Part shown: piece after piece, positions 7,572 through 61,699 of the stretch
How the letters are laid out: each line of letters begins with the position of its first letter
Position numbering within the stretch: the first letter of the stretch is position 1
Source of the DNA: an uncultured Gemmatimonadota bacterium
Lineage (GTDB): Bacteria > Gemmatimonadota > Gemmatimonadetes > Gemmatimonadales > Gemmatimonadaceae
Reading direction: 5' to 3'
Assembly: GCA_902826615.1 (NCBI GenBank)
Contig: CADEFN010000001.1
Coordinates: forward strand, 1,302,001-1,366,000
Length of the DNA stretch: 64,000 bases
The notes under the pieces: generated by a model
The model's input: the letters and a program-made list of their open reading frames with translations, nothing else
Database searches by the model: none
Told to the model about the DNA's origin: nothing
Translations under genes and position numbers: made by a program

Positions 7572-7606
7572 CAGCTGGTTCCCGTGATTGGGTTGATGAG
7601 GTGTCG

Positions 7607-44543: not shown

Positions 44544-46046
44544 ATGCGACGCGGGTTCGTACTTGCGCTGATGGCATTCGTCTCAGCGCCACTCAATGCA
44601 CAGGTCCCGGATTTCAAGGCGTTTGATGCCTGGGTCGCAAAGGGTGTGAAAGACTGGGAAGTGCCAGGCCTTGCCGTGGCGGTCGTGAAAGGCGACTCCC
44701 TGGTCTTTGCCAAGGGGTACGGTGTACGTGAACTCGGCAAGACGGACCCCGTCGACATCAGAACCCGTTTTTCCATCGGGTCGACGACCAAGGCCATGAC
44801 GGCCCTCTCGGTGCTGATGCTGCAGGACGAAGGGAAGCTCAAGCTCGATGATCCGGTCCTGCGTTTTCTTCCAGATCTGCAGCTGTACGATCCCGTGATG
44901 ACGCGGGAGCTCACCGTGCGTGACCTCCTCACCCATCACACCGGTCTCCCCGGGAGTGACCTCCTGTGGAGCGGTGGGGACTACTCAACGACCGAAGTGA
45001 TCCGGCGCATGCGATGGCTCAAACCCTCGGCGTCGTTCCGCAACGAGTACAACTACCAGAACGTGCAGTACGCCATGGCGGGCGAGGTGATTCGGGCGGC
45101 ATCGGGGATGCCCTGGGAGCAGTTCATCGAGCAGCGGATCTTCGGACCGTTAGGGATGCGCAACTCCGTGCCGGTCCTCTCGCGCACCATCGGCCAGCCC
45201 AATGTGGCCACACCACATATGCGCATCGGCGACACCGTTCGGGTGATCGTCAATCGCTCCGTCGACCCGGTGGCCGCCGCTGGCTCGGTCTGGTCGAGTG
45301 TGGAAGACATGTCACGCTGGATGCGCTTTGTCCTCGACTCGGGGCGCAGTGGCGGGCGTCGGCTGGTGAGCGCCGAGCGTTTTGTGGACTGGCTATCGCC
45401 GCAGGTGGTGGTGCCGCAGTCGCAATTTTATCCCACCGCCACCCTCACACGCCCGCATCAGGTGAACTACGGGCTGGGCTGGTTCCTGCAGGACTATCGC
45501 GGCATGTCGGTGGCCATGCACACCGGGAGCATTGACGGGCTGGTCGCCATCATCGGCCTGGTTCCCGACCAGCGGCTTGGCGTGTACGTCCTGGCCAATC
45601 TTGATCACGCCGAGGTGCGGCACGCCATCATGCATCGTGTCTTTGACATGTATGCGGGAGGGGCCTTGCGTGACTGGTCCGCAGACTTCCTCGCGTTGTA
45701 CGGCGGCTTCGAGAAGGCGGGCAAGGCCGCCGTCGCCGCCGACAAGGCGCGTCGTGTGGCCGGGACCAAACCGTCGCTTGCGCCCGGGCAGTACGTCGGC
45801 ACATACGCAGACTCGTTGTACGGGTCGGTGCAGGTGACAGAGCAGGGCGGGCGGCTCCGCGTCACCTTTGGCAAAGGGTTCACCGGCCTGCTCGACCACT
45901 GGCACTACGAGACCTTCTCCGTCACCTGGGACGACCGCCGCGCCGGAGAGGATCGTGTGGTCTTTGCGATCGACGCCAGCGGTCGGCCGGCGTCGGTGCA
46001 ATTGCTGGGCACCACGTTCCACGCTGTCCCGCAGAAGAATCGTTAG
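44544..46046 (+). CDS. Secreted serine hydrolase (beta-lactamase class C-like/DUF3471)
   Basis: 500 residues, ATG 44544 with signal peptide (RRGFVLALMAFVSAPLNAQ). The penicillin-binding-protein fold is shown by FSIGSTTKAMTALSVLML (catalytic Ser80 and Lys83, SxxK), the YxN-like YNYQNVQYAMAG (~177), and the His-x-Gly motif HTGSIDGLVAI. The C-terminal ~110 residues resemble the DUF3471 beta-barrel of such hydrolases. A peptide or ester hydrolase is likely, not a true beta-lactamase. The TAG stop falls within GTTAGG. The next gene, a deacetylase, starts 37 bases later. Confidence 0.85.
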   Translation: MRRGFVLALMAFVSAPLNAQVPDFKAFDAWVAKGVKDWEVPGLAVAVVKGDSLVFAKGYGVRELGKTDPVDIRTRFSIGSTTKAMTALSVLMLQDEGKLKLDDPVLRFLPDLQLYDPVMTRELTVRDLLTHHTGLPGSDLLWSGGDYSTTEVIRRMRWLKPSASFRNEYNYQNVQYAMAGEVIRAASGMPWEQFIEQRIFGPLGMRNSVPVLSRTIGQPNVATPHMRIGDTVRVIVNRSVDPVAAAGSVWSSVEDMSRWMRFVLDSGRSGGRRLVSAERFVDWLSPQVVVPQSQFYPTATLTRPHQVNYGLGWFLQDYRGMSVAMHTGSIDGLVAIIGLVPDQRLGVYVLANLDHAEVRHAIMHRVFDMYAGGALRDWSADFLALYGGFEKAGKAAVAADKARRVAGTKPSLAPGQYVGTYADSLYGSVQVTEQGGRLRVTFGKGFTGLLDHWHYETFSVTWDDRRAGEDRVVFAIDASGRPASVQLLGTTFHAVPQKNR

Positions 46047-46083: not shown

Positions 46084-47025
46084 ATGCGACGCCCATTGCT
46101 TCTGCTTGCCCTCGCGGCTTCCACGGCCAGCGCCCAAACACCACCCGTGAAACCCGGCTGGCAGTGGTCCACCGACACGGTGATGAAGGTGGTGAATGCG
46201 GTGCGCGCCGGACGGAGCCTGGCACCAAAGCAGTGGCCAGGTGGTGCTCGGGTGGGCGTGCTTCTCTCGTTTGACGTGGACAACGAAACGGTGCAGCTGC
46301 GTTTTGGTGAACCCACGGTGGGAGCCTTGTCGCAGGGGCAGTATGGCTCACGTGTCGCGCTCAAGCGCGTGGTCGATCTGCTCGACCGCAACCGGATCCC
46401 GGCGTCGTTTTTCATCCCGGCCGTCAGCCTGATGATTGCGCCGCAGCAGGTGGACATCATCAAGAAATCCGGGCGGCATGAGTTCGCGGTGCACGGATGG
46501 ATTCACGAGATGAATACCACGCTCCCCGGCCCGGTGGAGCGCGACCTCGTGAAACGTGCCATCGACACCCTCACCAGCATGACAGGCACTCGACCTGTAG
46601 GGTACCGGGCGCCCTCGTGGAACTTCTCCCCCAATACGCTCAACATCGTTCGCGAGATGGGCTTTCTGTATGAAAGTTCTCTGATGGCGGACGACAGTCC
46701 CTACGAGCTCCTGCAGAATGGCCAGCCGACCGGTATTGTCGAGCTCCCGGTGGAGTGGATCCTGGATGACGCGCCGCTCTTCAGTCCGCAGGGCAATGCG
46801 TACGCCAACCCGCGCGATGTGGCCCGCGTCTGGATGGATGAGTTTGACCGCGCCTATGCCGAGGGCACGATGTTTCTGCTCACCATGCATCCCCACGTGA
46901 GTGGACATCGCTCGCGCATCGTGGCGCTGGAGATGCTGATTGCCCACATCAAATCCAAGCCGGGCGTCTGGTGGGGCACGCACCGCGCGGCCGCCGAATA
47001 CGTGAAGAAGCAGGCGGGGATGTAG
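46084..47025 (+). CDS. Secreted polysaccharide deacetylase family protein
   Basis: 313 residues, signal peptide (RRPLLLLALAASTASAQ). The NodB fold is seen in VGVLLSFDVDNETVQL (catalytic Asp, then metal-binding Asp), FFIPAVSLMIAPQ, EFAVHGWIHEMNTTL (the two metal His), GYRAPSWNFSPNTL and MFLLTMHPHVSGHRSRI (late His). It would deacetylate a glycan or act as an allantoinase-like hydrolase; the length and the H-x-W-x-H motif fit the puuE/allantoinase branch too. Substrate unresolved. Confidence 0.82.
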   Translation: MRRPLLLLALAASTASAQTPPVKPGWQWSTDTVMKVVNAVRAGRSLAPKQWPGGARVGVLLSFDVDNETVQLRFGEPTVGALSQGQYGSRVALKRVVDLLDRNRIPASFFIPAVSLMIAPQQVDIIKKSGRHEFAVHGWIHEMNTTLPGPVERDLVKRAIDTLTSMTGTRPVGYRAPSWNFSPNTLNIVREMGFLYESSLMADDSPYELLQNGQPTGIVELPVEWILDDAPLFSPQGNAYANPRDVARVWMDEFDRAYAEGTMFLLTMHPHVSGHRSRIVALEMLIAHIKSKPGVWWGTHRAAAEYVKKQAGM

Positions 47026-47182
47026 GGGAAGTGGCGGACCCCACGCGCGTGTAGTTGGGTTGCTGCCGTTTATTTGTAGGGATGTGGGCGCCCCGACGCG
47101 TGCCCACCTCCTGCGGTGGCAATGCGATCCGGAGCTGCCCTTGCGCCCCTTCGGCGGCGCGCGTAGGCTGCTGTGTCATTTA

Positions 47183-47209
47183 ATGAGACTTCGTCCCGTT
47201 TTGTGAGAC
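47183..47209 (+). promoter_or_regulatory. Candidate IclR operator upstream of the nitroreductase gene
   Basis: Two TGAGAC half-sites in the same orientation at 47184-47189 and 47204-47209, exactly 20 bp apart. The first lies in the block TTTAATGAGACT, which matches TTTTATGAGACT at 48997-49008 in the receptor promoter. The site lies 66-91 bp upstream of the ATG at 47275. Confidence 0.6.
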
Positions 47210-47274: not shown

Positions 47275-48018
47275 ATGACTGACCTGAACGAACGCCGGCC
47301 GACGCCGAGCCACGACGTCGTGTATCCCGGGCGCGAGGAGGCCCGCCTTGTCCCCTTGGCTGAGTACACGCGTCGTCCGGTGTCGGAGATGCGAGCGCTG
47401 GCCGCGAGCTTCTATGCTGAGATGAATCGGCGCCGGACGGTTCGCGACTTCAGCACGGATCCGGTCCCGCGCGAACTGGTTGAACTGGCCATCCGGACGG
47501 CGGGAACGGCGCCATCGGGTGCGCATCACCAGCCGTGGCACTTCGTGGTCATCGGCGACCCAGCGCTCAAGGAGCGCATTCGCGAGGCGGCCGAGCGCGA
47601 GGAATTCGAGACGTATCAGCGCCGGATGAGTGAGGAGTGGCGGACCGCACTCGCACCGATCGGGACGCACTGGGTCAAGCCACACCTGACCGACGCGCCG
47701 TGGATCGTCGTGCTCTTCAAGCAGAGTTACGGCATCCTGCCCGATGGAACCAAGCGCAAGAACTACTACGTCGAGGAATCGGTGGGGATCGCGGCTGGAA
47801 TGTTCATTACGGCGCTTCATCATATGGGGCTCGTGACGCTCACCCACACACCGACCCCCACGGGATTCCTGCGGGAGTTGCTCAATCGCGGCAAGAATGA
47901 GACGGCGGTGCTGGTCCTTCCGGTGGGGTTCCCACACGCCGAGGCGACGGTGCCCGACTTCACGCGAAAGCCGCTCGAGGAGATCACGACATGGCACACT
48001 GCGGACGACGCCACCTGA
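47275..48018 (+). CDS. Nitroreductase family flavoprotein, iodotyrosine deiodinase-like
   Basis: 247 residues from ATG 47275; the 34 preceding codons from 47173 cover the operator and are not protein-like. The sequence tracks the IYD branch rather than ordinary nitroreductases: FYAEMNRRRTVRDFSTDPVP, then RTAGTAPSGAHHQPWHFVVI, EEFETYQRRMSEEW, APWIVVLFKQSYG, YYVEESVGIAAGMFITALHH and GLVTLTHTPTPTGFLRELL. The FMN-binding Arg-Arg-x-x-Arg and Ser-Gly positions are present. IYD enzymes reductively dehalogenate halotyrosines; a bacterial homologue might dehalogenate such amino acids. It is paired by promoter sites with the peptide-uptake locus next door. Confidence 0.85.
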   Translation: MTDLNERRPTPSHDVVYPGREEARLVPLAEYTRRPVSEMRALAASFYAEMNRRRTVRDFSTDPVPRELVELAIRTAGTAPSGAHHQPWHFVVIGDPALKERIREAAEREEFETYQRRMSEEWRTALAPIGTHWVKPHLTDAPWIVVLFKQSYGILPDGTKRKNYYVEESVGIAAGMFITALHHMGLVTLTHTPTPTGFLRELLNRGKNETAVLVLPVGFPHAEATVPDFTRKPLEEITTWHTADDAT

Positions 48019-48141
48019 TCTCGTCGCGGGCAACCGGCTAACTCCTCGCAGCCTTCTCCCGCTCGGCCGCCTCCCGGCCCTTGCCGCCGGTCTCCTGGAA
48101 ACTCACGCCGCCGCGCAGTGTTCGCCGGGGGCGTCCGGGCA

Positions 48142-48891
48142 TCAGGGATGAATCCCTGAATAGCCGATGGCGGCGGAGGCTTCGCTCGCCGCCTGAATCA
48201 CCGCCTGCCGAACCTTGTCCAGTTGCTCGGCGCTCGCACGCGCTTTAGGCAACCCGACGGTGATGGCGGCGGCCACCGCAGCGGCGTGATTCCACACTGG
48301 GGCGGCGACACCGAAGACATCACTCACCCACTCCCCACGCGCAACGGCCACACGCCGGTCCTGCACGCGTGAGAGCTCTTCGTTGAGACGCCCGTGGTCC
48401 GTGATGGTCGTTGGCGTGAATCGCTCCAGGCGCGCGCCGAGCAACTCGCGTCGCATCGCCGGACTCATCCAGGCAATCAGGACCTTGCCGCCGGCCGACG
48501 CATGCAGTGGCGGATGTCCACCCAGGACCCCCGGCACCATCAATGGCTGGAAGGACTCCACCATCTCCACTGTACTGCCGATGGAGCCATTGCGGACCAT
48601 GAACGTCGCGGTTTCTCCCGTTAGGTTGCTGAGGCGGACAAGCGTCGGATACAGCGCGCGCTGCAGGGTGGTGGAACGCTGGGCGAGGAGGCCAAGGCCC
48701 GCCAGTCGAATCCCGACACGATACCGGGACGTGTCTTCATCCTGGTCCAGAAAGCCATTGGCTGTGATGCTGCTGAGCAGCCGATACACCGTGCTCTTGG
48801 GTCGTCCGAGTTGCTCCGCGATTTCCAGCGCGGAGAGCTCCGGACGTTGTGGGGAGAACAACGCCAGGATCTCGCTGAGTTTCTGGAGCAT
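48142..48891 (-). CDS. IclR-family transcriptional regulator
   Basis: 249 residues. ATG 48891 (MLQKLSEILALFSPQRP) is chosen over 48996 because it starts precisely at the winged helix. DNA-binding domain: LSALEIAEQLGRPKSTVYRLLSSITANGFL. Ligand-binding GAF-like domain: ETATFMVRNGSIGSTVEMVES and LHASAGGKVLIAWMSP, ending AITVGLPKARA. It is divergent from the SusC-like receptor and convergent with the nitroreductase, and the shared TGAGA half-sites in both neighbouring promoters make it the obvious regulator. The ligand is probably an aromatic or peptide-derived catabolite, but this is not shown. Confidence 0.9.
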   Translation of the reverse strand: MLQKLSEILALFSPQRPELSALEIAEQLGRPKSTVYRLLSSITANGFLDQDEDTSRYRVGIRLAGLGLLAQRSTTLQRALYPTLVRLSNLTGETATFMVRNGSIGSTVEMVESFQPLMVPGVLGGHPPLHASAGGKVLIAWMSPAMRRELLGARLERFTPTTITDHGRLNEELSRVQDRRVAVARGEWVSDVFGVAAPVWNHAAAVAAAITVGLPKARASAEQLDKVRQAVIQAASEASAAIGYSGIHP

Positions 48892-48966
48892 GAGGTGGTG
48901 CCGTGGGTACGGGTCGAGCGATCCGGAATGATACGTCTTGCCGCGTGCGTCAGCGGGCGGTACGAT

Positions 48967-49008
48967 AGTCTCGCGAAAGATGAGAGTCAATCTCATTTTA
49001 TGAGACTA
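48967..49008. promoter_or_regulatory. IclR operator cluster between iclR and the SusC-like gene
   Basis: TGAGAG (48981-48986) and TGAGAC (49001-49006) lie exactly 20 bp apart, as at the nitroreductase promoter. In addition, TCTCAT (48991-48996) makes perfect inverted repeats with ATGAGA on both sides (48980-48985, spacer 5; 49000-49005, spacer 3), and TAGTCTC (48967-48973) with GAGACTA (49002-49008) forms an outer pair. It lies 76 bp beyond the IclR start and 37 bp before the SusC-like ATG, suited to control both. Confidence 0.65.
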
Positions 49009-49044
49009 TTTTGCCGACGGAACGCGCGGCGAGGAGCTGGAGCG

Positions 49045-52032
49045 ATGCATCAATCTGTCAGGAGAGCTCTGTTGGTTGTTGGTTTGGCTGGCTTCGGCTG
49101 GACAGTGCCGACGACGACGCTCGGCGCGATGCAAGTCGCCCGCGCGCCGGGCGACTCGATTGCCGGCAATGTCCGCGACGAACGTGGCCGGCCCGTGGCC
49201 GGGGCGCGGGTGGCCATTGTGGGGACAGCAACAGTGGTCTCGAGCGACGGGCGCGGACACTTCCGGATGACCGACGCCGGGGCAGGCGAGGTGACCGTTC
49301 GAGTGACGGCGCTCGGCTACGCGGCCCAGTCTCGGACCGCCCGTGGCGGTGGCGCGCCAATCGAGTTCGTGCTCGAAGAGCTGGTGATGAAGCTCGACGA
49401 AACGGTCGTCACCGGTACGGCGGGCGCGGTGGAGAAGCGCTCGTTAGGTAACGCGGTCACCAAGATCGACGCACGGGCCACGCTCGAGCTGGCGCCCGTG
49501 GCAGACGTGGCACAACTGGTCAACGGGCGCGCGGCGGGCGTGATCCTCACGGCCAACGGCGGCGCCGCCGGGGCGGGCGCAAAAATCAGTGTGCGGGGTC
49601 GCAACAGCCTGGCGCTGACCACGCAGCCGCTGGTCTATGTCGATGGCGTACGCGTGGATGCGGCGCCCTTCAGCGGGCCGGCGATCCAGGGCGCCAACGT
49701 GGTCTCGCGCCTCAACGACATCAATCCCAACGACATCGAGTCGATCGAGATCATCAAGGGGCCTGCCGCCGCCACGCTCTACGGCACCGAAGCGTCCAAC
49801 GGTGTGGTGCAGATCATCACCAAGGCGGGGCGCGCCTCCGACCGGGCGCGGATCGACGTGACGATCGACCAGGGGACCAGCGCCTTCGACAATCCCAACG
49901 GCCGCATCCCCACGAACTTCGCGCGCAATCCTGCGGGGCAGATCGTCACCTACAACGCTGCTGCAGCCGAGGAAGCGCGCGGAGCGCCGCTGTGGCGCAC
50001 GGGTCACTATCAGCGCTATGCGCTGGCCGCCGAGGGAGGCTCGGGGCCGATTTCATACCGCACGAGCGGCAACTATCAATACGACCAGGGGATCGACCTC
50101 ACCAACGACCAGCGCATGGGGTCGGCGCGTGCCAACCTCCAGTTTCTTCCGCGGCCCTCGTTCTCTGCGCGGTTGGACATCGGTGTCGTGGCGGGCAAGA
50201 CACAGCTGACACTCCAGGAGGGTGGTGGCGGACCGATCTTCGGTGCGATCAATGCCAATCCCCTGCTGCAGAACTCGCCCAACCGCGGCTTTATCTTTGG
50301 GCCGCCCGAAGTGCTCCACGCCGTGAACGACGCGTTTCAGCTCCTGCGCCGCACGACAGCCAGCTTGCAGCTGCAACAACAAATTGGCACACGGTTCACG
50401 CATCGGCTGAACCTGGGGCTGGACAACGCATCGGAGAACAACCAGTACCTGGTCCAGCGTATGACCGCGGCACAGGCCGCGTTCTTCAGCCCGGTGGCGG
50501 CGCAGGGACGCAAGGACGTCAACCTGCGTGACGCCACGACGACCACGCTCGACTACAATGGCACGATCAACCTCAACCTCTCATCGAGGCTGCGGTCAAC
50601 TACATCGTTTGGGGCGCAATACTTCGACCGGCTGAACCGTTTCACGGTCGCCAGCGGGCAGCAGTTTCCGGCCCCGGGGTTGAGCACCATCCTCGGCACG
50701 TCGATCCGCACCGGGTCGGATGACTACATTGAAAATGCAACCGTGGGTTTCTTTGCGCAGCAACAGGTGGCGTTGCGCGACCGGTTGTTCCTCGTGGGCG
50801 CCGTGCGGGTCGACAACAACAGCGCGTTCGGGACCGACTACGACCTGGCGACGTATCCCAAGGTGAGTGCCAGCTGGGTCGTGAACGAGGAGCCGTTCTG
50901 GAAGCTGGGATTTGTGAATGCCCTGAAACTGCGCGCGGCGTACGGCGCCGCCGGGCAGCAACCCGATGCGTTCGCGGCCATTCGGACACTGGCGCCGGCG
51001 ACGGGCCCCGGTGACTCACCGGCCCTCACCACGCAGTCCATCGGAAACAACGATCTCAAGCCGGAGCGCGGTACCGAGCTCGAGCTCGGGTTCGACGCCG
51101 GGTTGTTCAACCAGAAGCTGGGCATCGAGGCCACGTATTTCAGGCAGAACCGGCGTGATGCGATCCTGCTCGCTCCCGCTCCGCCGTCGGGCGGCTTCAT
51201 TGGCACACAGTTCGTGAACGCGGGCGCCATCAAGAACAACGGCGCTGAGGTCAAGCTCACCTACGCCGTGCTGGAAGGCGCGAGATATGGCTGGGACCTC
51301 GGAGCGTCGGTGTCGATGAACGAGAACGAGATCACCGACCTGGGTGGTCAGCCCTCCATCTTCGTCGGGACCTTCCCGCGGGCACAGCAGCATCGGGTCG
51401 GATACCCGGTCGCCGGATTCTTCGGGCAGCGTGTCACGAGCGGATCTCTGAGTCCCACGGGAGTCGCGACCAACCTCCAATGTGCTGGGGGGGCGGGTGG
51501 GGCGTCGGTGCCATGCGCCACGGCACCGTTTGTCTACCTCGGCCGGTCTGTGCCGAAGTACGAGGGGGCGGTGACATCAACCATCCGGGTGTTGCAGCGC
51601 GTGCGCATCTACACCATGGTGGACTTCAAGCGGGGCCATCATCGCTTTGATACCAACCTGTGGGCGCGATGCAGCGTGTTCCGTTTGTGTGAGGCGAGTG
51701 TCTCGCCGGAGAAGTTCTCGCCCGCGACGGTGGCGTACGCGCAGCAGGGCAGCGCCCTCGCACTCACCAGCGGTTTCATCAACGACGCGAGCTTCGCCAA
51801 GCTGCGCGAGGTGTCCGTGAACGTGGATGTCCCCCCCACCTGGCTGCGCGGGCTCAACGCATCGCGTGCCTCGATCACCCTGTCGGGCCGCAACCTCCGA
51901 ACGTGGACCAACTGGAGCGGCCTCGATCCCGAGATAGAGCAGCCCGGATCATTCGGGGAACTCTCCAGCAGCGAGCAGGGCATTCTGCCGCTGCCGATGC
52001 AGTTCCGCCTCACGCTGAACTTGAACTTCTAG
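49045..52032 (+). CDS. SusC/RagA-like TonB-dependent outer-membrane receptor
   Basis: 995 residues. ATG 49045 (MHQSVRRALLVVGLAG) has GAGGAG upstream; an ATG at 48999 lies inside the operator. A signal peptide is followed by a carboxypeptidase-regulatory-like domain (~45-115: SIAGNVRDERGRPVAGARVAI), then the plug (~125-270) with ISVRGRNSLALTTQPLVYVDG and the SusC-type IESIEIIKGPAAATLYGTEA. The ~700-residue barrel ends LTLNLNF, the correct terminal Phe. The following gene is SusD-like, so this is a lidded nutrient importer. The downstream peptidases suggest peptides rather than glycans. Confidence 0.92.
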   Translation: MHQSVRRALLVVGLAGFGWTVPTTTLGAMQVARAPGDSIAGNVRDERGRPVAGARVAIVGTATVVSSDGRGHFRMTDAGAGEVTVRVTALGYAAQSRTARGGGAPIEFVLEELVMKLDETVVTGTAGAVEKRSLGNAVTKIDARATLELAPVADVAQLVNGRAAGVILTANGGAAGAGAKISVRGRNSLALTTQPLVYVDGVRVDAAPFSGPAIQGANVVSRLNDINPNDIESIEIIKGPAAATLYGTEASNGVVQIITKAGRASDRARIDVTIDQGTSAFDNPNGRIPTNFARNPAGQIVTYNAAAAEEARGAPLWRTGHYQRYALAAEGGSGPISYRTSGNYQYDQGIDLTNDQRMGSARANLQFLPRPSFSARLDIGVVAGKTQLTLQEGGGGPIFGAINANPLLQNSPNRGFIFGPPEVLHAVNDAFQLLRRTTASLQLQQQIGTRFTHRLNLGLDNASENNQYLVQRMTAAQAAFFSPVAAQGRKDVNLRDATTTTLDYNGTINLNLSSRLRSTTSFGAQYFDRLNRFTVASGQQFPAPGLSTILGTSIRTGSDDYIENATVGFFAQQQVALRDRLFLVGAVRVDNNSAFGTDYDLATYPKVSASWVVNEEPFWKLGFVNALKLRAAYGAAGQQPDAFAAIRTLAPATGPGDSPALTTQSIGNNDLKPERGTELELGFDAGLFNQKLGIEATYFRQNRRDAILLAPAPPSGGFIGTQFVNAGAIKNNGAEVKLTYAVLEGARYGWDLGASVSMNENEITDLGGQPSIFVGTFPRAQQHRVGYPVAGFFGQRVTSGSLSPTGVATNLQCAGGAGGASVPCATAPFVYLGRSVPKYEGAVTSTIRVLQRVRIYTMVDFKRGHHRFDTNLWARCSVFRLCEASVSPEKFSPATVAYAQQGSALALTSGFINDASFAKLREVSVNVDVPPTWLRGLNASRASITLSGRNLRTWTNWSGLDPEIEQPGSFGELSSSEQGILPLPMQFRLTLNLNF

Positions 52033-52047
52033 GGCAACGGAGAACCC

Positions 52048-53325
52048 ATGACTAATCCCAAAACCTTGCTCTCGCGGATCGTGGCCACCGGTGTGTGCGT
52101 TTTGGCCCTGGGGACCGCCGCCTGCTCCTCGCTGCTCGAAGTCGACGTGCCGAGCCGCGTGCCGGCCGACGATGCCTTTGTGCCGGAGAATGCCAGCATC
52201 CTGATGAACAGCGTCATCGGCGAGTTTGAGTGCGCCTTCGGCGTGGCCGTCGCCAGCGGTGGGTTGCTTGGAGATGAGCTGGCCAACTCCTCCACGGGCA
52301 ACACGCAGTGGCAGGTGGACCGGCGCGACATGCAGACCAGTTCCACCATCAACACGGGCGGGTGTGGAGCGCTCGGTCCGTTCGGATCGTTCTCCGTGGT
52401 GAACTGGTTGGCCTCGGGTTTTCGCACGTCACTCGAGGGATGGACGGACGCGCAAGTCGCCAATCGACGTGCCCTGCTCGCGCGTAACGCGGCGTACCAG
52501 GCCTACTCCTATCTGCTTTTGGGTGAGCAGATGTGCAGCGCGACCGTCAACGTTGGCCCCGAACTCACCAAGGCCCAGCTTTTCGCGCTTGCGGACGAGC
52601 GCTTTTCGGTCGCGATTGCCGAGGGGGGGGCCACCAACCAGGCCGATGTTCGCGACATGGCACTGGTCGGCCGGGCGCGGACCCGCCTCAACCAGGGGAA
52701 TCGAACCGGGGCAGCCGCCGATGCGCGGCTGGTGCCAGCGGGCTTTGTAAAGAACGCCACGTTCTCGGCGGCAGACGCGCGACGCTTCAATCCCGTTTTC
52801 AACAACAACAATCGCGGGGCAGGGGTTACGGTCGGTCCGGTCTACCGCGACCTCCGATTCAACGGGGTGCGAGATCCGCGGGTGAACGTGACCAACGGGA
52901 ACCGCCTGGGGCAAAACCAGGTGGATGCCCTCTGGCTCCAGGGGAAGTACACTGCGCTGGACTCCCCTATTCCGATTGCGCGTTGGGAGGAGGCACAGCT
53001 GATCGTCGCCGAGGCAGAGCTGGAGGCCGGCAACCTTCCGGCGGCGGTGGCGATCATCAACGCGTTGCATGCGCGCACGACCCCGGCGCTGCCACCGTTC
53101 GCGAGCACCAGCGCCACGGAAATCCGCGCGCAGCTGGTGTATGAGCGACGCGCCGAGTTGTTCCTCGAGTCGCACCATCTCAACGATTACCAGCGCTTTG
53201 CCCTGCCGTTTACTCCGGCTACGGGGGCGCCATTCCCGTTAGGCGGCGGTTTCTATGGGTCACAGCGATGTTTCCTCATTCCGGACCTGGAACGGACGAC
53301 CAACCCGAACCTCAATGGTGGTTAG
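52048..53325 (+). CDS. SusD/RagB-like substrate-binding lipoprotein
   Basis: 425 residues, ATG 52048, lipobox LGTAACSS (Cys ~26), so anchored on the outer surface as the lid of the SusC-like receptor. The start SSLLEVDVPSRVPADD, the helical body with TPR-like units (ADERFSVAIAEGGATNQADV, RARTRLNQGN) and the C-terminal RAELFLESHHLNDYQRF are SusD hallmarks. Slightly short compared with the usual 500 residues. 15 bases separate it from the receptor gene, and its TAG stop sits in a GTTAGG that also overlaps the next start. Confidence 0.9.
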   Translation: MTNPKTLLSRIVATGVCVLALGTAACSSLLEVDVPSRVPADDAFVPENASILMNSVIGEFECAFGVAVASGGLLGDELANSSTGNTQWQVDRRDMQTSSTINTGGCGALGPFGSFSVVNWLASGFRTSLEGWTDAQVANRRALLARNAAYQAYSYLLLGEQMCSATVNVGPELTKAQLFALADERFSVAIAEGGATNQADVRDMALVGRARTRLNQGNRTGAAADARLVPAGFVKNATFSAADARRFNPVFNNNNRGAGVTVGPVYRDLRFNGVRDPRVNVTNGNRLGQNQVDALWLQGKYTALDSPIPIARWEEAQLIVAEAELEAGNLPAAVAIINALHARTTPALPPFASTSATEIRAQLVYERRAELFLESHHLNDYQRFALPFTPATGAPFPLGGGFYGSQRCFLIPDLERTTNPNLNGG

Positions 53326-55087
53326 GCGGCTCGGTCTCGCCGTTGCCTGTGCCTGGTCGTTCCTGTCCCCCTGCATGTCGGAGGGACAGGGGACGGCCGG
53401 GCGACCCGAGGCTCGGGTGGTGGCGCTCGCCGATGAACTCTGGGCGCGCCGCATGGAGGACAACCTCTCGTTGCGCCTGCGCAACGGCCTCCCGGTGCGA
53501 GGGCTCCCAACACTTGCATACGACCCGGTGCGACGGGAGGCCGAGTACGCCGGTCGTCTGCTGCAGCGCCTGAGTAGTGTGCGGGCGGTGCCGGTCGGGA
53601 GCGACGCGTGGAGCCTGGCCACCGTCGTTCGGTTTCGCGCCGAGGAAGCCGTCGCCGCCGAGCGCTTCTTCTGGTTCCGCAATCCAGTGTCGCCGTACGC
53701 CAACGAGCTTGACGATGTGCACCGCGTATTCACCGGGTTTCGCTTCGCGGCAGCCGGTGATGTGGACACGTATCTCGACCTGCTGGAGCAGTACCCCGGA
53801 GTGATCGACAGCTATGTGGCATACCTCCGGGGCCAGGTGCGCCGCGGGATCGTGATGCCGCGTGACGAAGCGGCGTCGGCGCTGCGGCAGATGCGCGGGT
53901 TCGTTCAGCCTGCCGAGCGCAGCCTCTTTGCCGTCGACACGGTTCGACTGCAGGCCCTCGACGTGGCCCGGAGGTCGGCACTGACAGCACAGCTGGCCGC
54001 GGCGATCAGCGAACGGATCAATCCGTCTCTCCAGCGTCTGGTGGACTACCTGGAAGGACCCTACACGCAGCAAGCCGGCACACGCGTCGGGTTGGCGCAG
54101 TACCCGGGGGGCGAGGCGTACTACCGTCAGCTCGTGCGTCAGTACCTCACGTTTGACATGTCGCCTGAGGCCGTGCACCAGCTCGGGCTTCGGGAGGTGG
54201 CACGACTCAATGCCACCATGGACTCGATCCGCCGCCAGGTTGGGTTCAGCGGGAGCAAAGCGGAGTTTCATCGGTTGCTGCGCACCGATGCGCGGTTCGT
54301 GCCAAAGTCGACCGAGGATGTGCGTCGCCGCATGGTGGCGGCGGTGGACACCCTTCTGCCCAAACTGCGGGAAGTGTTTCACGTTGTGCCGAGCATCCCG
54401 TACGATGTGCGTCGCCTGCCGGCTGCGCTCGAACCGGGCATGACGTTCGGGTACTTCCAGGGTCCCACGGCGGCCGAGCGTGTGGGGGTGTACTACTTCA
54501 ACGGAAGCAATCTCGACCAGAAGAGCCAGGTGTGGTACGTCGGACTCGCCTACCATGAGCTGATGCCGGGGCATCACTATCAGGCGTCACTGGCGGTCGA
54601 CCGAAGCGCCAGGCTCCATCCGTTGCGGCAGGCGTTCAGCAGTACCGCATTCGGCGAGGGGTGGGCGGAGTACGCGGCGACGCTGGCCGGTGAGCTGGGG
54701 GGCTATCGTGATCCGTACGACCGATATGGCCGACTCATCATGGACTTGTTCGCGTCGGTTCGGCTCGTGCTCGATACCGGCATGAACCTGATGGGCTGGA
54801 GCCGCGAGCAGGCGAAGGAGTACATGCGCGAGAACTCCATCATGTCGGAGCCGGAGATCGAGTCGGAGACCTTACGGTACTGCTGCGACATTCCGGCCCA
54901 GGCGCTTGGCTACCGAATGGGGTCGCTCAAGATCATGGAGTTGCGCCAGAAGGCCCAGGCCGCGTTAGGTTCCCGCTTTGACCTTCGCGATTTCCATCAG
55001 GTGGTGATTGGCGATGGGGTACTGCCGTTTACCGCACTTGAACAGCGAATCGATCAATACATCGCCCGCGGACGACGTGGGCACTGA
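53315..55087 (+). CDS. Secreted DUF885 metallopeptidase-like protein
   Basis: 590 residues from ATG 53315, which overlaps the SusD stop by 11 bases; the signal peptide is RRLGLAVACAWSFLS. The DUF885 fold shows the zinc motif YHELMPGHHYQASL (HExxPGH, ~residue 420), the downstream FGEGWAEYAATLAGELG glutamate and the C-terminal RMGSLKIMELRQKAQA. Members are bacterial secreted metallopeptidases or carboxypeptidase-like proteins. It would degrade peptides before or after uptake by the SusC/SusD pair. Conserved N-terminal helical half is present. Confidence 0.85.
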   Translation: MVVRRLGLAVACAWSFLSPCMSEGQGTAGRPEARVVALADELWARRMEDNLSLRLRNGLPVRGLPTLAYDPVRREAEYAGRLLQRLSSVRAVPVGSDAWSLATVVRFRAEEAVAAERFFWFRNPVSPYANELDDVHRVFTGFRFAAAGDVDTYLDLLEQYPGVIDSYVAYLRGQVRRGIVMPRDEAASALRQMRGFVQPAERSLFAVDTVRLQALDVARRSALTAQLAAAISERINPSLQRLVDYLEGPYTQQAGTRVGLAQYPGGEAYYRQLVRQYLTFDMSPEAVHQLGLREVARLNATMDSIRRQVGFSGSKAEFHRLLRTDARFVPKSTEDVRRRMVAAVDTLLPKLREVFHVVPSIPYDVRRLPAALEPGMTFGYFQGPTAAERVGVYYFNGSNLDQKSQVWYVGLAYHELMPGHHYQASLAVDRSARLHPLRQAFSSTAFGEGWAEYAATLAGELGGYRDPYDRYGRLIMDLFASVRLVLDTGMNLMGWSREQAKEYMRENSIMSEPEIESETLRYCCDIPAQALGYRMGSLKIMELRQKAQAALGSRFDLRDFHQVVIGDGVLPFTALEQRIDQYIARGRRGH

Positions 55088-55103
55088 CCCGGGAGGGCTG
55101 ACG

Positions 55104-57401
55104 GTGTTGGGACACGTGATGCGCGCCGGCGTTGTGGGATTGTGGTGTGTGCTGGCTCCCGGGCTTGGGGCACAGGCGAGCCCGGACTCGGCGCGATGGG
55201 TTCGATATCGGGCGTATCAGCAGGTGGGCGAGCTGCTCGACGACACGCGCATTGTGCCGCACTGGATGCCGGATGGTGCGAGCTTCTGGTATACGAGTGG
55301 TTCGTCGCAGGATCGCGAGATTCGGCGGGTGGACGCGGCAACGGGACGCGCCACACCGATGTTCGACGTCGCGCGGCTTCGCGCAGCGCTCACCGACGCC
55401 AGGCATCAGGAGCCGGCCGGGCGGGGCGTGCCCTTTGCTGCCTTTGCCGTTGCTGGCCCTGGCGTTGTGCAGTTCGAGCTCGAGGGACGCAGCTGGCGGT
55501 TGGATCTTTCGACATACGCGGTGACGCGTGTGACGGCGCCCGATGCGTTCGCCGATGTTATCGGCATCCTGGGAAGTGAAAGGTCCAGGGTCACGCCACA
55601 ACCCTTCTGGCAGGAGACGTTTACCGGCATTGGCGAAATGCGGGCGATGGAGCGTGCGTCGCCTGATGGTCGGTGGTTTGTCTCGACCCGCGACTACAAC
55701 CTGGCGATCCGGGCGGCGGTGGACGGTCGCGCCACGATGCTCACCGCGGACGGCAGCGCCGACGTACGCTGGATCGTGGAGACGGGGCGCTGGAACCCCT
55801 GGTCGCCTAACGGACAACGCCTCCTGGCCTCGAAGGTGGACGTGCGCGGCGTGGCGAAGATCCCCACGGTGCAGTGGCTCAAGCCGCTTGAGGAGTTGCA
55901 GGAGGTGCTCACGATTCCAGCCGGCGGCACCATGGAGAACGACCAGCCGTATGTGGTGGACATCAATGGGCGCACTCCCGTGAAACTCGCGTTAGGCGAG
56001 ACCAGGGACTGCTACGTGGTGTTCCTGGGCTGGACGCCGGACAGCAAGCGGGTGTTGGTGGCGAAGTACAACCGCCTGATGAACCGGGTTGATGTGTATG
56101 CGGCCGACGCGATCTCCGGCGAGACACGCGTGATCCTTACAGAAGAGTCCAAGACCTTCCTGACCAACCAGCACGAGGTGGTGAGCAGCACCGATCTGCC
56201 ATTCACCATGTTTCCTGATGGCTCGGGCTTTGTGTGGCGATCGGAGCGCGACGGCTGGGACCAGCTCTACCGATATGACCTGAACGGCACCCTCGTCACG
56301 CGACTCACGCAGGGCGCCTTCCCCGTGCTCGATGTGGTTCGTATCGACCAGGCTTCGGGCTGGGTGTACTTCAGCGCGAACGGTGATCCGTCGCGTCCGT
56401 ACGATACACACCTGTATCGCGTGAGCCTCGGTGGAGGGCGGCAACAACAGCTTACCCAGGGCAACGGAGTACATCGTGTGTCGATGTCACCGACCGGCAC
56501 GCACTTCATCGACACATACTCGACGCCCGCAGTACCACCACGGACCGAGTTGCGACGAGTGGATGGTGCGCTCGTCAGCGAGGTTGGTGGTGCCGATATC
56601 TCCCGTCTGCAGAAGATCGGGTACACTCCTTCGCGCGAGTATGTGGTGAAGGCCGCGGATGGAGTGACTGACCTATGGGTGACGATGCACTTTCCGGCAG
56701 ACTTCGATAGCACCCGCAAGTACCCAGTGGTGGAGTACATCTATGGCGGTCCGCAGATCGTGACACGCCCACTCGAGTTCGAAGCCGCACCCGGTATTTC
56801 CCAATCGGCATACAACCGGGCGCTCGCGCAACTCGGCTTTGTCGTCCTCACGCTGGATGCGCGCGGGACCCCGTGGCGATCGAAGGCCTTTCATGACGTG
56901 ATCTTCCACAACTGGGGCAACTTCGAGATGGCTGATCACGCGGGGGCGATCAGGCAACTCGGCGCGCGCCTCCCGTTCATGGACCTCAGCCGCGTGGGCA
57001 TCTGGGGGCGCTCGTGGGGTGCGCACTACGCGGTGCGTGCACTGGCGCAGGCCAACGACCTGTACAAGGTGGCATCGGCGGAATTCCCCGGGTTCGACCC
57101 CGGCGGTGGTGACCTGTACGAGATCTACCTTGGCCTTCCCGGGGACAATCCGCAGCTCTACAACACCGCCAACCCGATCCTCCTTGCACCAAAGGTGCGA
57201 GGCAAGTTGCTGTTGGTGAGCGGACTCAACGACACCGGTACCATGCGCGAGCTGGCCAAGATGTCGGATGCGCTGGTGCAGATCGGCTTCCAGCATGACC
57301 TGATGGTGTACGCCAACACCAGCCACTCGCCCATGGGCCGGGTCGCCGCGTACAATGAAGAACAGCGCACCCAGTTCCTGGTGCGCCACCTCCGACCCTG
57401 A
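55104..57401 (+). CDS. Secreted S9 family peptidase (DPP-IV-like)
   Basis: 765 residues from the GTG at 55104, with GGGAGGG about 8 bases upstream; ATG 55119 is an alternative. Signal peptide VVGLWCVLAPGLGAQ. The propeller region includes PHWMPDGASFWYTSG and WTPDSKRVLVAKYN, and the catalytic domain has Ser in GIWGRSWGAHYAV, Asp in LVSGLNDTGTM, and His in ANTSHSPMG. The nucleophile elbow is GRSWGAH instead of GWSYGG, so specificity may differ from classical DPP-IV. Together with the DUF885 enzyme and the receptor pair it makes a peptide-utilisation locus. The next gene follows 8 bases later. Confidence 0.87.
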   Translation: MLGHVMRAGVVGLWCVLAPGLGAQASPDSARWVRYRAYQQVGELLDDTRIVPHWMPDGASFWYTSGSSQDREIRRVDAATGRATPMFDVARLRAALTDARHQEPAGRGVPFAAFAVAGPGVVQFELEGRSWRLDLSTYAVTRVTAPDAFADVIGILGSERSRVTPQPFWQETFTGIGEMRAMERASPDGRWFVSTRDYNLAIRAAVDGRATMLTADGSADVRWIVETGRWNPWSPNGQRLLASKVDVRGVAKIPTVQWLKPLEELQEVLTIPAGGTMENDQPYVVDINGRTPVKLALGETRDCYVVFLGWTPDSKRVLVAKYNRLMNRVDVYAADAISGETRVILTEESKTFLTNQHEVVSSTDLPFTMFPDGSGFVWRSERDGWDQLYRYDLNGTLVTRLTQGAFPVLDVVRIDQASGWVYFSANGDPSRPYDTHLYRVSLGGGRQQQLTQGNGVHRVSMSPTGTHFIDTYSTPAVPPRTELRRVDGALVSEVGGADISRLQKIGYTPSREYVVKAADGVTDLWVTMHFPADFDSTRKYPVVEYIYGGPQIVTRPLEFEAAPGISQSAYNRALAQLGFVVLTLDARGTPWRSKAFHDVIFHNWGNFEMADHAGAIRQLGARLPFMDLSRVGIWGRSWGAHYAVRALAQANDLYKVASAEFPGFDPGGGDLYEIYLGLPGDNPQLYNTANPILLAPKVRGKLLLVSGLNDTGTMRELAKMSDALVQIGFQHDLMVYANTSHSPMGRVAAYNEEQRTQFLVRHLRP

Positions 57402-57409
57402 GTGGTGCC

Positions 57410-57949
57410 ATGAAACAGATCATCGCCCCCCTGTTGGCTGCGCTTGCTCCCGCCCTCGCCGCGGCACAGGGTGATCGCGTCGCAACGCACCTCATCACCA
57501 CCAACGAGGTGGTGATCGCGCGCCCAGCCACGGCCGTGTGGCCCTTCATCATGGACCCCACGTCATGGAAACAGGGCAACAAGCTGGTGCATCGATCCGG
57601 GCCGAAGGGCGCCACCGGGGAAGTGTTCGCGGCCGTGTCGGCAGCGACGCCCGACAAGGCCGACTACTTCGTGGAGAACGCCGACCTGATCCCGCGTCGG
57701 CGTCGGGTGATCAAGTTGTACACACCGGATGGCGTGCTGGTCGGCTTTGCCGCATTTGTCCTCACGGAGTCGGGAGGCAAGACCACGGTACGGTACGACG
57801 TCTACTCGGAGACGCTGATCCCGAAGGCCGAGGTGGCCAAGCGAACGCCGGCGTCGATCGCAGAGGACGAGCGCAAAGCGCGTGAGGCAAGCATGAAGCG
57901 TTTCGACGCAGAACTACAGGCCCTCAAGAAACTCGTGGAGGCCAAGTGA
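57410..57949 (+). CDS. Secreted SRPBCC/START-like small protein
   Basis: 179 residues, signal peptide (KQIIAPLLAALAPALAAAQ). The rest starts with TTNEVVIARPATAVWPFIMDPTSW, which is the opening helix-strand pattern of polyketide-cyclase/SRPBCC folds, and continues with strands to ESGGKTTVRYDVYSETL, ending in a long charged helix. Such folds bind hydrophobic ligands. Its role in the operon is unknown. The stop overlaps the next start by 4 bases (GTGA). Confidence 0.65.
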   Translation: MKQIIAPLLAALAPALAAAQGDRVATHLITTNEVVIARPATAVWPFIMDPTSWKQGNKLVHRSGPKGATGEVFAAVSAATPDKADYFVENADLIPRRRRVIKLYTPDGVLVGFAAFVLTESGGKTTVRYDVYSETLIPKAEVAKRTPASIAEDERKAREASMKRFDAELQALKKLVEAK

Positions 57950-58932
57950 GGTCTCTCATTCTCGCAGTTGGCATGGTCCTGGCGGCCGCGTGTGGCAGCA
58001 AAGCGCCTGAGTCTGCGCAGGACGCAGCGGCGTGGAAACCAGAGGTGCGCGAGGGGTACGCGGTCACACCGGACAGTGTGCGGTTATACTACCGCGTGGT
58101 AGGGAACGGGCCGGAGACGGTGATCGTCGGCGCGGCGAACTATTTCCAGAAGTCCCTGGACGCGCTGGCGACCCCAACGCGACGGCTCGTGCTCTATGAC
58201 ATTCGAGGGCGCGGCAAGACCGACTCGGTTCCTCCATCCAAAATGGGCATCGCCGAGTTTGATGCCTCCGACATCGATGTGCTGCGCAAGGAAGTCGGCG
58301 CAGAGAAGGTGGCGTTGATAGGCTGGTCAGGTGGTGCGCTCTCCACCTTTCGTTATGCCGCAGAGTTTCCAGACCGAGTCTCGGCGCTGGTGCTGCTCAC
58401 CCCGGTTGGTCCCCGATGGGTACCCTGGTGGGATGACATGCGAAAGAACGGGGCGTCCAAAGCCGACACCGTCGCCAGCAGTGCGCTCGCGGCCCGGATC
58501 AAGGCGGGAGAGTTCAAGGACAACGAGGTGGCCCTCTGTCGCGAGTCGGCGAAGATCGGCCTCAAGACCAACTGGGTGGTGACCGAGCGCATCAACCTGG
58601 CGCCCGATGTGTGCGACTCCCCCAACGAAGTGCCGTCGCGTTACGGAGACTTTGTCCCGCGCCTGCTCGCCAAACTGGGCAAGTACGACTACCGCGCCGA
58701 CTTTGCCCGCGTGACAGCACGCCGCCTCGTGATCCATGGGGAGTTTGACAACCCGCCGTTAGGCGGGAGTCTCGAATGGGTTGCCGGTCAACCGGAGGCG
58801 AGGCTGCTGGTCGTCAAGGGTGTGGGGCACTGGCCGCACTACGAAAAGCCCGACGAAACGCTGGCCGCCCTCACGGCCTTCCTGGATGGTGGGTGGCCGG
58901 TGGGTAGTGACGTCGTGCCGGCAGGAAAATGA
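57946..58932 (+). CDS. Alpha/beta-hydrolase lipoprotein
   Basis: 328 residues, GTG start 57946, lipobox VLAAACGS (Cys ~16). The hydrolase triad: nucleophile Ser in LIGWSGGALSTF, Asp in VIHGEFDNPP and His in GVGHWPHYE. The strand RRLVLYDIRGRGKTDSV has the oxyanion-hole pattern. It may be an esterase, prolyl iminopeptidase-like or epoxide-hydrolase-like enzyme; proline iminopeptidase is attractive given its peptidase neighbours. Overlaps both neighbours by 4 bases, so tightly coupled. Confidence 0.8.
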   Translation: MRSLILAVGMVLAAACGSKAPESAQDAAAWKPEVREGYAVTPDSVRLYYRVVGNGPETVIVGAANYFQKSLDALATPTRRLVLYDIRGRGKTDSVPPSKMGIAEFDASDIDVLRKEVGAEKVALIGWSGGALSTFRYAAEFPDRVSALVLLTPVGPRWVPWWDDMRKNGASKADTVASSALAARIKAGEFKDNEVALCRESAKIGLKTNWVVTERINLAPDVCDSPNEVPSRYGDFVPRLLAKLGKYDYRADFARVTARRLVIHGEFDNPPLGGSLEWVAGQPEARLLVVKGVGHWPHYEKPDETLAALTAFLDGGWPVGSDVVPAGK

Positions 58933-60209
58933 TCCTCGCGAGGCTCACGTTGATCGTCGCGCTATTCGGGGCGACGCATGCCCTCGCGCAGACACCGGAT
59001 ATCCCGATCGACCCGGCCTTTCGCGCATGGGCGCGGTCCAACGCCATTGCGGTGCGGCCGGTCGACGAACCCTACAGTGATACAGCGTGGGCATTCCTGC
59101 GGCCCTTGGTCGGGGGGGCACGTGTGGTGGCGATCGGGGAGAATATCCACGGGGGACACGAACCCCTTGCCCTGCGCAACCACATCATCCGGTATGCGGT
59201 GACACAGCTCGGCTTCACCGCGGTGGCCATCGAATCGGGCTTTACGGAAGGGCAACTGGTCGATCGCTACGTGCAAGGCGAGGCGCTCGACATCGACACG
59301 GTGTTGCGCCAGGGGATCAACAACGGGTTCGGCCTGATGCCGGAGAACAAGGAGCTGCTCCTCTGGCTGCGCGCGCATAACGAGACCGCCTCGCGCAAAG
59401 TACACTTCTACGGCATTGACCAGACCGGGGCCGGGGCCGCGATTTATTCGGGCGCGCCTGCCGTCGAGGCGGCGCTGACGTATCTCGGGCCAGCGCGAGC
59501 GGCCCCACACCGTGCGGCCCTGGTGCCACTGCTCGACCGCTTTACGGCCGGACGTTTTCCCGAGATCTCGTCTGGCGAGAGAGCCCGGCTGAGGGAATCG
59601 TTAGGCCGACTTGGCCGGGCGGTTGGCGCCGCACCATCTGCGGATCGTCTGGCGCATGCGGTCGCCGTGCGAAATGTCTGGGCCGCGGAGCGACTGGAGC
59701 AATCGTTCGGGGCCTCTGGTGCTGAAGGCCCGCGCAGCCTCCACGCCATTCGGCTGCGCGACAGCGTGATGGCTGAGAACGCGCGCTGGGTTCTGCAGCA
59801 GCAGGGACCGGGCGGCCGCATGGTGGTCTTTGCGCACAATGGGCATGTGTGGGACGTGCCCATGGCATTCCCCGCCATGGGTCCGGCCATGGTGATGATG
59901 GGCACGCGACTCCGCCGCGTATTGGGGCGCGACCTGTGCGTCATGGGAATGGCGGCGGTGAAATACGAGGGCATGGGGTCCGTCTTGTCCGACCTGAGTT
60001 CAATGGAGAACTCGTTTGCCCGGGTAGTGCCCCCGAGTCACGCGATCGATCTTCGCACCGCCGATCGAATACCTGCGGTCAGGGCGTTGCTCCACGAACC
60101 CTGGGTCACGCGCATCCATGCCTGGCTGCAGCCCATCGTGCCCCGTCAGGCCACGGACATTCTGTTCACGCTCGAGCGTGTCACGCGCTCGCGGATGGCG
60201 GATCGGTGA
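58929..60209 (+). CDS. Erythromycin-esterase-like hydrolase
   Basis: 426 residues, signal peptide (ILARLTLIVALFGATHALAQ). The family motifs are GENIHGGHEPLALRNHIIRY (active-site Glu and His), AVAIESGFTEGQLVDRYV, VHFYGIDQTG and MVVFAHNGHVWDVP. The conserved Ere histidine near GGHEP and the HNGHV histidines are kept, so hydrolase activity is possible. Most members of this family are not antibiotic resistance enzymes but act on unknown lactones or esters, so a resistance role is only speculative. Last gene of the operon that starts with the SusC-like receptor; the next region contains a DtxR-type palindrome. Confidence 0.82.
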   Translation: MILARLTLIVALFGATHALAQTPDIPIDPAFRAWARSNAIAVRPVDEPYSDTAWAFLRPLVGGARVVAIGENIHGGHEPLALRNHIIRYAVTQLGFTAVAIESGFTEGQLVDRYVQGEALDIDTVLRQGINNGFGLMPENKELLLWLRAHNETASRKVHFYGIDQTGAGAAIYSGAPAVEAALTYLGPARAAPHRAALVPLLDRFTAGRFPEISSGERARLRESLGRLGRAVGAAPSADRLAHAVAVRNVWAAERLEQSFGASGAEGPRSLHAIRLRDSVMAENARWVLQQQGPGGRMVVFAHNGHVWDVPMAFPAMGPAMVMMGTRLRRVLGRDLCVMGMAAVKYEGMGSVLSDLSSMENSFARVVPPSHAIDLRTADRIPAVRALLHEPWVTRIHAWLQPIVPRQATDILFTLERVTRSRMADR

Positions 60210-60349: not shown

Positions 60350-61699
60350 TTGTCTCTCCCGGAATCCACCGCGCCCGAACCTGGCTGGCGTCGGGCACGC
60401 GAAGCCCCTTCGCTGGCCGAGGTCCATCGCAGCGTCACGGTGCATGGCCTCTCCAAGTGGAAGAAGATCCTGGCCTTTGCCGGACCGGGTTACCTCGTGG
60501 CCGTGGGGTACATGGACCCGGGTAACTGGGCCACCGACCTGGCCGGCGGTTCGCAGTTCGGCTACTCGCTCCTCAGCGTCATCCTGATATCCAATCTGAT
60601 GGCGGTTCTGCTGCAGGGGCTCGCCTTAAAGCTCGGAATTGTCACGGGACGCGACCTCGCGCAGGCCTGCCGAGATCACTACTCCCGCCCGGTGAGTTTT
60701 GCTCTCTGGGTGTTGTGCGAGATCGCCATCGCCGCGTGTGATCTGGCCGAGGTGATCGGCACCGCCATCGCGCTCAATCTCCTCTTTTCGATTCCGCTGG
60801 CCTGGGGTGTGGCGATTACCGCCTTCGATGTGTTGCTGGTGTTGTATCTCCAGAACAAGGGATTCCGCCTGCTCGAGGCCCTGGTGATCACCCTCGTGGC
60901 GGTGGTCGGGGCCTGCTTCCTCTTTGAATTGTTTGTCTCGCGCCCCGACATGGGGGACGTGGCCAAGGGGTTCATTCCCACCGCCGACATTCTGCGCAAT
61001 CAGGACAAACTCTACATCGCCATCGGTATCCTCGGTGCCACGGTGATGCCGCACAATCTCTACCTGCACTCCTCCATCGTGCAGACCCGCAAGTATGAGG
61101 AAAGTCAGGAAGGGAAACGGGAGGCAGTGAAGTACGCCTTCATCGATTCCACCATCGCGCTCTCTTTCGCGCTCTTCATCAATGCCGCCATCCTTATCGT
61201 GGCGGCGGCCACCTTCCATCGGTCGGGCAACACACAGGTGGCCGAGATCCAGGACGCCTACCAGCTCCTCTCACCGCTTCTGGGTGTGGGGGCGGCGAGT
61301 GGTGTCTTTGCGCTGGCCCTCCTCGCGTCGGGGCAGAACTCAACGCTGACCGGCACCCTCGCGGGACAGATCGTGATGGAGGGCTTCCTCAATATTCGGC
61401 TCCGCCCCTGGGTGCGGCGCCTCCTGACTCGCGCGATAGCCATTGTGCCCGCTGCGATCACGGCCATTTTGTATGGCGAAAGCGGGACCGCGCAGTTGCT
61501 CATCCTCAGTCAGGTCATCCTCAGCCTCCAGCTGTCGTTCGCCGTGTTTCCTCTGGTGATGTTCACGTCAGATAAGCTCAAGATGGGGTCGTTTGCCAAC
61601 CCCGGCTGGCTCAAGGTGTCCGCGTATGCTGTGGCGACGGTCATCGCCTCGCTCAACGTCTGGCTCCTGATCCAGACCGTGCGCGGGTGGATGAGCTGA
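60350..61699 (+). CDS. mntH: NRAMP-family Mn2+/Fe2+ transporter
   Basis: 449 residues, TTG start at 60350. Proton-coupled divalent-metal importer of the inner membrane. Helix 1 metal site: [20 protein letters not shown] (Asp and Asn ligands), helix 6 site: [13 protein letters not shown] (Met of the MPH motif retained). About 11 membrane helices. The upstream palindrome and the co-transcribed DtxR-type regulator suggest manganese-repressed expression. The C-terminal hydrophobic end overlaps the UspA gene by one base (TGATG). Confidence 0.92.

Follow-up and report, generated by a model that had tools for sequence, protein, structure and literature searches.

One of the closest described counterparts of the locus reported here is RagAB of Porphyromonas gingivalis, a SusCD homologue that an excerpt of PMC11817032 presents as an importer of peptides made by gingipains. 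Polysaccharide utilisation loci also combine a SusC/SusD pair with downstream hydrolases. For IclR-family regulators, most of which govern aromatic catabolism, an excerpt of PMC8222616 describes three-box sites of alternating direction, including that of PcaU, which requires the third box. Here we describe a SusC/SusD operon with a divergent iclR gene in a window of 64,000 nucleotides, a piece of contig 1 of the 5.9-Mb genome (G000) of an uncultured Gemmatimonadota bacterium. On balance, we think it probable that this locus is an IclR-controlled uptake and breakdown system of the RagAB-like kind, acting on a peptide that is probably modified, the candidate modifications being a blocked, N-methylated, ester-closed or halogenated structure. 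As in RagAB, a SusC/SusD-type pair is linked, here by its gene context, to probable peptide breakdown; unlike RagAB, with its gingipain-made peptides, the locus has peptidase genes inside the operon and an IclR regulator. It differs from polysaccharide utilisation loci in that no carbohydrate-active enzyme is found among the operon genes. The features of the locus are as follows, the two genes of uncertain membership being given last.

47174..47208, plus strand: second operator, upstream of the deiodinase-like gene; TGAGA-N5-TCCCG-N5-TGAGA at 47184-47208, with an extra left box TGTCA at 47174
47275..48018, plus strand: iodotyrosine-deiodinase-like flavoprotein (IYD) of nitroreductase fold, predicted regulon member (Pfam/NCBIfam, PDB match)
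48142 to about 48891, minus strand: IclR-family regulator (PF01614, PF09339; start set from relatives, longest open reading frame to 48996)
48981..49005, plus strand: exact three-box operator TGAGA-N5-TCTCA-N5-TGAGA in the iclR/susC gap (motif search)
49045..52032, plus strand (start 49000 or 49045): SusC/RagA TonB-dependent receptor (TIGR04056, 410.8 bits, cut-off 368.25)
52048..53325, plus strand: SusD/RagB lipoprotein (PF07980, 38.5 bits, cut-off 23.1)
53315..55087, plus strand: DUF885 metallopeptidase-like protein with a YHELMPGHH motif and a signal-like N-terminus (PF05960, 427 bits)
55119..57401, plus strand: S9 (DPP-IV/PtpA-like) serine peptidase with a signal-like N-terminus (DPPIV_N and Peptidase_S9)
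57410..57949, plus strand: SRPBCC protein with a signal-like N-terminus (PF10604 only below its cut-off, 24.3 against 27.4)
57946..58932, plus strand: alpha/beta-hydrolase lipoprotein, lipobox LAAAC by eye (Pfam/NCBIfam scan)
58929..60209, plus strand: Ere-like protein (Erythro_esteras, PF05139), final operon gene
44544..46046, plus strand: beta-lactamase-family serine hydrolase, PF00144 and DUF3471 (Pfam/NCBIfam scan), membership uncertain
46084..47025, plus strand: polysaccharide-deacetylase/PuuE-like protein outside the operon (TIGR03212, 95 bits against a cut-off of 424.6), membership uncertain

Seven plus-strand genes, from susC to the Ere-like gene, lie head to tail at 49045-60209 with intergenic gaps of 15, -11, 31, 8, -4 and -4 nt, in agreement with the initial annotation, which had described the genes after the receptor pair as free of significant gaps. 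The gene contents and coordinates that it gave were also borne out by the open reading frame list and the Pfam/NCBIfam scans, as was the lack of a glycoside hydrolase: none of the ten scanned proteins of the locus matched such a family. SusC and SusD are adjacent and both pass their family cut-offs. The gene that had been left out is the divergent iclR, the product of which has both the HTH_IclR and the IclR_C domain. It is located between susC and IYD, and IYD is convergent to it. Because the minus-strand iclR separates IYD from SusC, IYD cannot be a member of the operon. Signal-like N-termini were recognised by eye in the products of all five genes after SusD, suggesting that these are exported, and none was seen in IYD. 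The base composition of the locus is unremarkable, and the next gene after the Ere-like gene is mntH, at a distance of 140 nt.

We searched 395 genomes of the phylum for related loci. SusD has matches at 70-71% identity in four other genomes (G313, G262, G106 and G083), all of which belong to a single genus of the family, g23. In all four, the order susC-susD-DUF885-S9-SRPBCC-alpha/beta-hydrolase is kept, the left part being on another contig in G083, with identities of 67-68% for susC (66% for the piece at the G083 contig end), 70-73% for susD, 51-54% for DUF885, 59-60% for S9, 48-51% for SRPBCC and 64-65% for the alpha/beta-hydrolase. The iclR gene is in the same place (55-57% identical). 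By our own count, g23 makes up 24 of the sampled genomes, and since few of these carry the locus, it counts as accessory. SusD matches do not exceed 51% in G001, G002 and G004, which belong to the window's genus (G003 was absent from that listing), and the best match of the Ere-like protein among the four own-genus genomes was 53% (G003). The comparison of gene order proposed in the initial annotation thus supports the core from susC to the alpha/beta-hydrolase in four of four relatives; it does not extend to IYD and Ere, neither of which is present in the locus stretches of these genomes. Conservation of IYD with the locus is thereby ruled out.

The relatives carry a cytochrome P450 gene between iclR and susC, on the iclR strand and divergent from susC, and their operon continues without interruption into genes for an M19 dipeptidase (PF01244, 380.9 bits), a second alpha/beta-hydrolase, SoxB (530.6 against an NCBIfam cut-off of 529.45) and SoxA (951.5 against 1164), the last being truncated by the contig end in G262 and G083. 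Dpp/Opp-type transport genes adjoin iclR in G262. In all four relatives the SRPBCC and alpha/beta-hydrolase parts form the N- and C-terminal halves of one open frame without a stop, and this fusion strongly suggests that the window's two separate proteins act together. As the finishing enzymes vary by lineage (IYD, or P450 with SoxBA), modified residues are suggested. The own genome has SoxA and SoxB elsewhere (identities of 59% and 70%), and no operator was found in that stretch (L139) with up to three mismatches; N-demethylation can therefore not be tied to the window locus.

Peptide breakdown is the best account of the locus and is well supported by gene content, because of the peptidase families encoded here, the M19 dipeptidase and SoxBA in the relatives, and the peptidase-type neighbours present at nine of 15 related non-core SusD loci. 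These neighbours comprise six beta-lactamase-family proteins, one S13 protein, one DPPIV_N/PD40 propeller (truncated at the locus boundary) and one M19 protein. One further neighbour is an FAD oxidase, and the other five were outside the Pfam scan (L096 at a contig end; L099, L101 and L104 on the opposite strand; L103, which looks like L100). The beta-lactamase-family gene at 44544..46046 is 58% identical to a gene directly downstream of one related SusD (G034, L093) and 35% identical to one beside alpha/beta-hydrolase and Ere-like genes in G373 (L111). It is possibly a functional partner of the locus, and no operator was found before it. With beta-lactamase/AmpH-type, S13 and M19 proteins next to related SusD genes, one of them similar to the window gene, the substrate might be sought among D-amino-acid peptides such as muropeptides. 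We consider this very unlikely, given that the scanned operon genes include no amidase, LD-/DL-endopeptidase or MurNAc enzyme and that IYD, P450 and SoxBA would be left unexplained. Just upstream of the window (L114, G000 C1:1284000-1302500), a further SusC and SusD (40% and 48% identical) precede a beta-lactamase-family gene, and SusD with such a gene after it recurs in several relatives; no operator was found in this cluster with up to three mismatches.

Control by IclR is suggested by a three-box operator at the iclR/susC gap, which is new here. The intergenic sequences read TGTCATTTAATGAGAC at 47174 and TCTCATTTTATGAGAC at 48991. With at most two mismatches, TSTCATTTWATGAGAC has no occurrence in the 5.9-Mb genome apart from those upstream of IYD and susC. 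This pattern was built from the two sites themselves, and independent tests were hence added. The palindrome TCTCA-N5-TGAGA has a single occurrence in each of G106, G262 and G313 and two in G083, and the P450/susC gap is among these places every time. The own genome has it at the locus and once more elsewhere; the control was counted 3+3 times there and never in the g23 relatives. The full operator consists of three boxes ten bases apart and is exact at the locus in five of five genomes. Across the search set, exact TGAGA-N5-TCTCA-N5-TGAGA was found at seven places in six genomes, and its reversed control in none of the 395. Five of the seven places are this locus, the others being L152 and L163, and each lies beside an intact or decayed iclR. 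From this conservation, IclR is predicted to bind the operator. Promoter-like matches near the operator were at chance level (2 found, 1.7 expected).

The operator resembles those of PcaU/PobR/HmgR-type IclR regulons in its three boxes of alternating direction, as described for PcaU. It differs in its half-site, TGAGA/TCTCA, the most similar one listed in the excerpt of PMC8222616 being GTCTCATCAGAC of IphR. The predicted target, a SusCD operon, also differs, and the words 'peptide' and 'sarcosine' are absent from the main text of that paper.

Two of the operator places outside the locus merit a description. L152 (G083 C60:1-15000) holds a shortened iclR, an intact operator, a DUF885 fragment, a GGT-like gene (by eye) and an M19 gene and, judged by these remains, is a duplicate of the locus that has decayed. 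An isolated S9 gene with 76% identity to that of the window, together with an SRPBCC fragment (L122), seems to be on the same contig. In L163 (G197 C127:6815-10419), from an order-level relative, the operator precedes a different iclR gene (33% identical) by 7 nt, and that gene is followed by a GcvT/SoxA-like gene (30% identical) and FAD enzymes (by eye); this is perhaps a regulon for an N-methyl compound.

The initial annotation had pointed to an altered nucleophile elbow in the S9 peptidase. The sequence GRSWGAH is as stated, but it still fits GxSxG, and GRSWG[AG]H is common to the five closest relatives. Ser632, Asp705 and His736 align with the S9 family triad and are invariant in 34 sequences, and with the triad kept, inactivity due to the elbow is ruled out. 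An AlphaFold model of good confidence built from the 34 sequences (predicted local distance difference test score, pLDDT, 84.6; a five-sequence model with pLDDT 45 was not used) matches DPP-IV and PtpA along its length, with a VIA Z of 40.3 and a root-mean-square deviation of 4.3 over 639 aligned residues for 5yp1_C. The window S9 is like PtpA/DPP-IV (2d5l, 2ecf, 5yp1) in this whole-length fold and in the triad, and unlike them in its elbow and, as the stronger departure, in lacking the Glu residues that anchor the substrate N-terminus. In the alignment, read by eye, Arg217 takes the position of PtpA E205, which we take to be the N-terminus anchor, and Asp665 that of E636, a residue named in PDB titles. 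The relatives have Leu and Gln at these positions, and the window S9 lacks the loop in which L004 carries the Glu pair. The loss of the anchor would fit a substrate whose N-terminus is blocked or absent. Another S9-type peptidase, 28% identical to that of the operon, is encoded at 5307-7877 on the minus strand.

These observations bear on one alternative, an ordinary RagAB-like oligopeptide-scavenging SusCD locus with general peptidases, in which the presence of IYD, Ere, P450 and SoxBA nearby is accidental or reflects a loose linkage. RagAB imports peptides (PMC11817032, excerpt), M19, S9 and DUF885 are general peptidase types, and the distribution of the locus is patchy. Yet the relatives' operon includes M19 and SoxBA without a break (contig ends cut SoxA in two of four), an operator stands before IYD, and the S9 peptidase is without the free-N-terminus anchor. 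We therefore regard this alternative as rather unlikely, though it deserves to be kept in mind.

The Ere-like protein belongs to the PF05139 family and keeps the GExxHGxxE and HNGH motifs, as do EreA/B/C. It differs from these in its signal-like N-terminus, its place in a peptide operon and its score, the best against NCBIfam EreA/EreB/EreD being 91.1 bits with a cut-off of 750. A role as a macrolide-resistance gene is unsupported at this distance from the cut-off. Its homologues are scattered across genomes, and in G373 one is next to a homologue (47%) of the hydrolase and a beta-lactamase-family gene. Solved relatives of DUF885 exist and are without a named function. An aromatic ester or polyketide, with S9, DUF885 and the hydrolases serving as esterases, would suit the chemistry of the Ere family, alpha/beta-hydrolase, SRPBCC and P450 proteins and the predominance of aromatic catabolism among IclR regulons in the excerpt of PMC8222616. 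Such a substrate nevertheless seems improbable to us, as the DUF885 and S9 families are peptidase-like and the relatives' operon contains the M19 dipeptidase and SoxBA.

The best PDB match of IYD is 5ko7 (E 1.7e-72), presumably the Haliscomenobacter enzyme, followed by the IYD structures 3tnz, 3gb5 and 4ttb. The spacing E-x3-Y-x20-K of the Glu/Tyr/Lys triad is kept, and GLVTLTHTP (THTP) is present; we take the human counterparts to be E157, Y161 and K182, with a Thr near the flavin. The protein is thus like known iodotyrosine deiodinases, animal IYD included, in sequence and triad, and unlike them in being predicted to be co-controlled with a peptide operon. Structures of bacterial members of this family have been solved, and we know of no settled cellular role for them. 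The copy of the operator before IYD has a changed middle box (2/15 mismatches) and an extra left box. The chance of a match in the 249 bp before IYD, reckoned from the genome match density, is roughly 2 in 10,000. Because this two-mismatch copy stands before it, IYD probably belongs to the regulon in this genome, though it is not conserved with the locus. A second IYD-like gene is directly adjacent to an argD-like one, both in the own genome (L081, G000 C1:255185-255850) and at four other fetched IYD loci (L068, L070, L071 and L072), which is an arginine-biosynthesis setting.

The proposal of halogenated tyrosine peptides in the initial annotation rested on IYD lying beside the locus. This argument from proximity fails, since IYD is outside the operon and absent from the locus in all four relatives; the shared operator nonetheless ties IYD to the locus and makes a better case for halotyrosine than adjacency did. 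Halotyrosine peptides are a candidate substrate, and peptides containing N-methyl groups or esters are equally good ones. The broader proposal of a locus for peptides or modified amino acids is supported by the conserved peptidase operon, M19 and SoxBA in the relatives and the SusD neighbours.

In the IclR-controlled system that we favour, SusCD would bring the peptide across the outer membrane, and the apparently exported DUF885, S9, SRPBCC-hydrolase pair and Ere-like protein would act in the periplasm, cleaving amide bonds and probably ester bonds as well. Fragments would then pass on to the cytoplasm, where IYD, as a regulon member outside the operon, might reduce a (halo)tyrosine-like residue. 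The order of these steps is our suggestion. IclR is predicted to occupy both the iclR/susC operator and that before IYD, and to respond to a breakdown product. Several observations weigh against this interpretation. SusD has no close solved relative (best E 0.004-0.005, RagB being among the matches), IYD is at the locus in one genome only, and the four relatives represent one genus and are not independent. With up to two mismatches, the three-box pattern gives five matches in three regions of the own genome (the locus, IYD and one other, chance-like region), and its control gives four. No operator was found at the other fetched IYD loci (L062-L082) with up to three mismatches. In a motif-blind comparison of the intergenic regions, the 14/16 match was equalled by 50 of 3000 Markov shuffles and by 4 of 485 window tiles, and the link of IYD to the locus is, taken alone, therefore moderate.

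A bolder version of the modified-peptide interpretation, which we put forward tentatively and think quite unlikely, is a dedicated Gemmatimonadota pathway feeding on non-ribosomal peptides that are cyclic or lactone-closed, N-methylated and sometimes halogenated. After import by SusCD, exported ester- and amide-cutting enzymes needing no free N-terminus would open the ring, and exchangeable cytoplasmic modules under one IclR operator would finish the unusual residues, IYD by dehalogenation in one lineage and P450 with SoxBA by oxidation and N-demethylation in another. If true, bacterial IYD would thereby gain a physiological function. No such locus was found among the titles and abstract openings listed by an open-licence library for DUF885, bacterial IYD, Gemmatimonadota SusCD, SusCD loci with peptidases, and the degradation of cyanopeptolin and of N-methyl peptides. 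In a phylum that has received little study, the locus combines a SusCD system with apparent IclR control and interchangeable finishing enzymes. The operator shared with a peptide-uptake operon makes the role of a bacterial IYD testable: two DNA sites and one regulator are defined, and one inducer is to be found.

Downstream of the operon, mntH, a universal stress protein gene and an mntR-like gene (names by eye) overlap head to tail at 60350-62840 (-13 and -4 nt) and form an apparent manganese transport unit.

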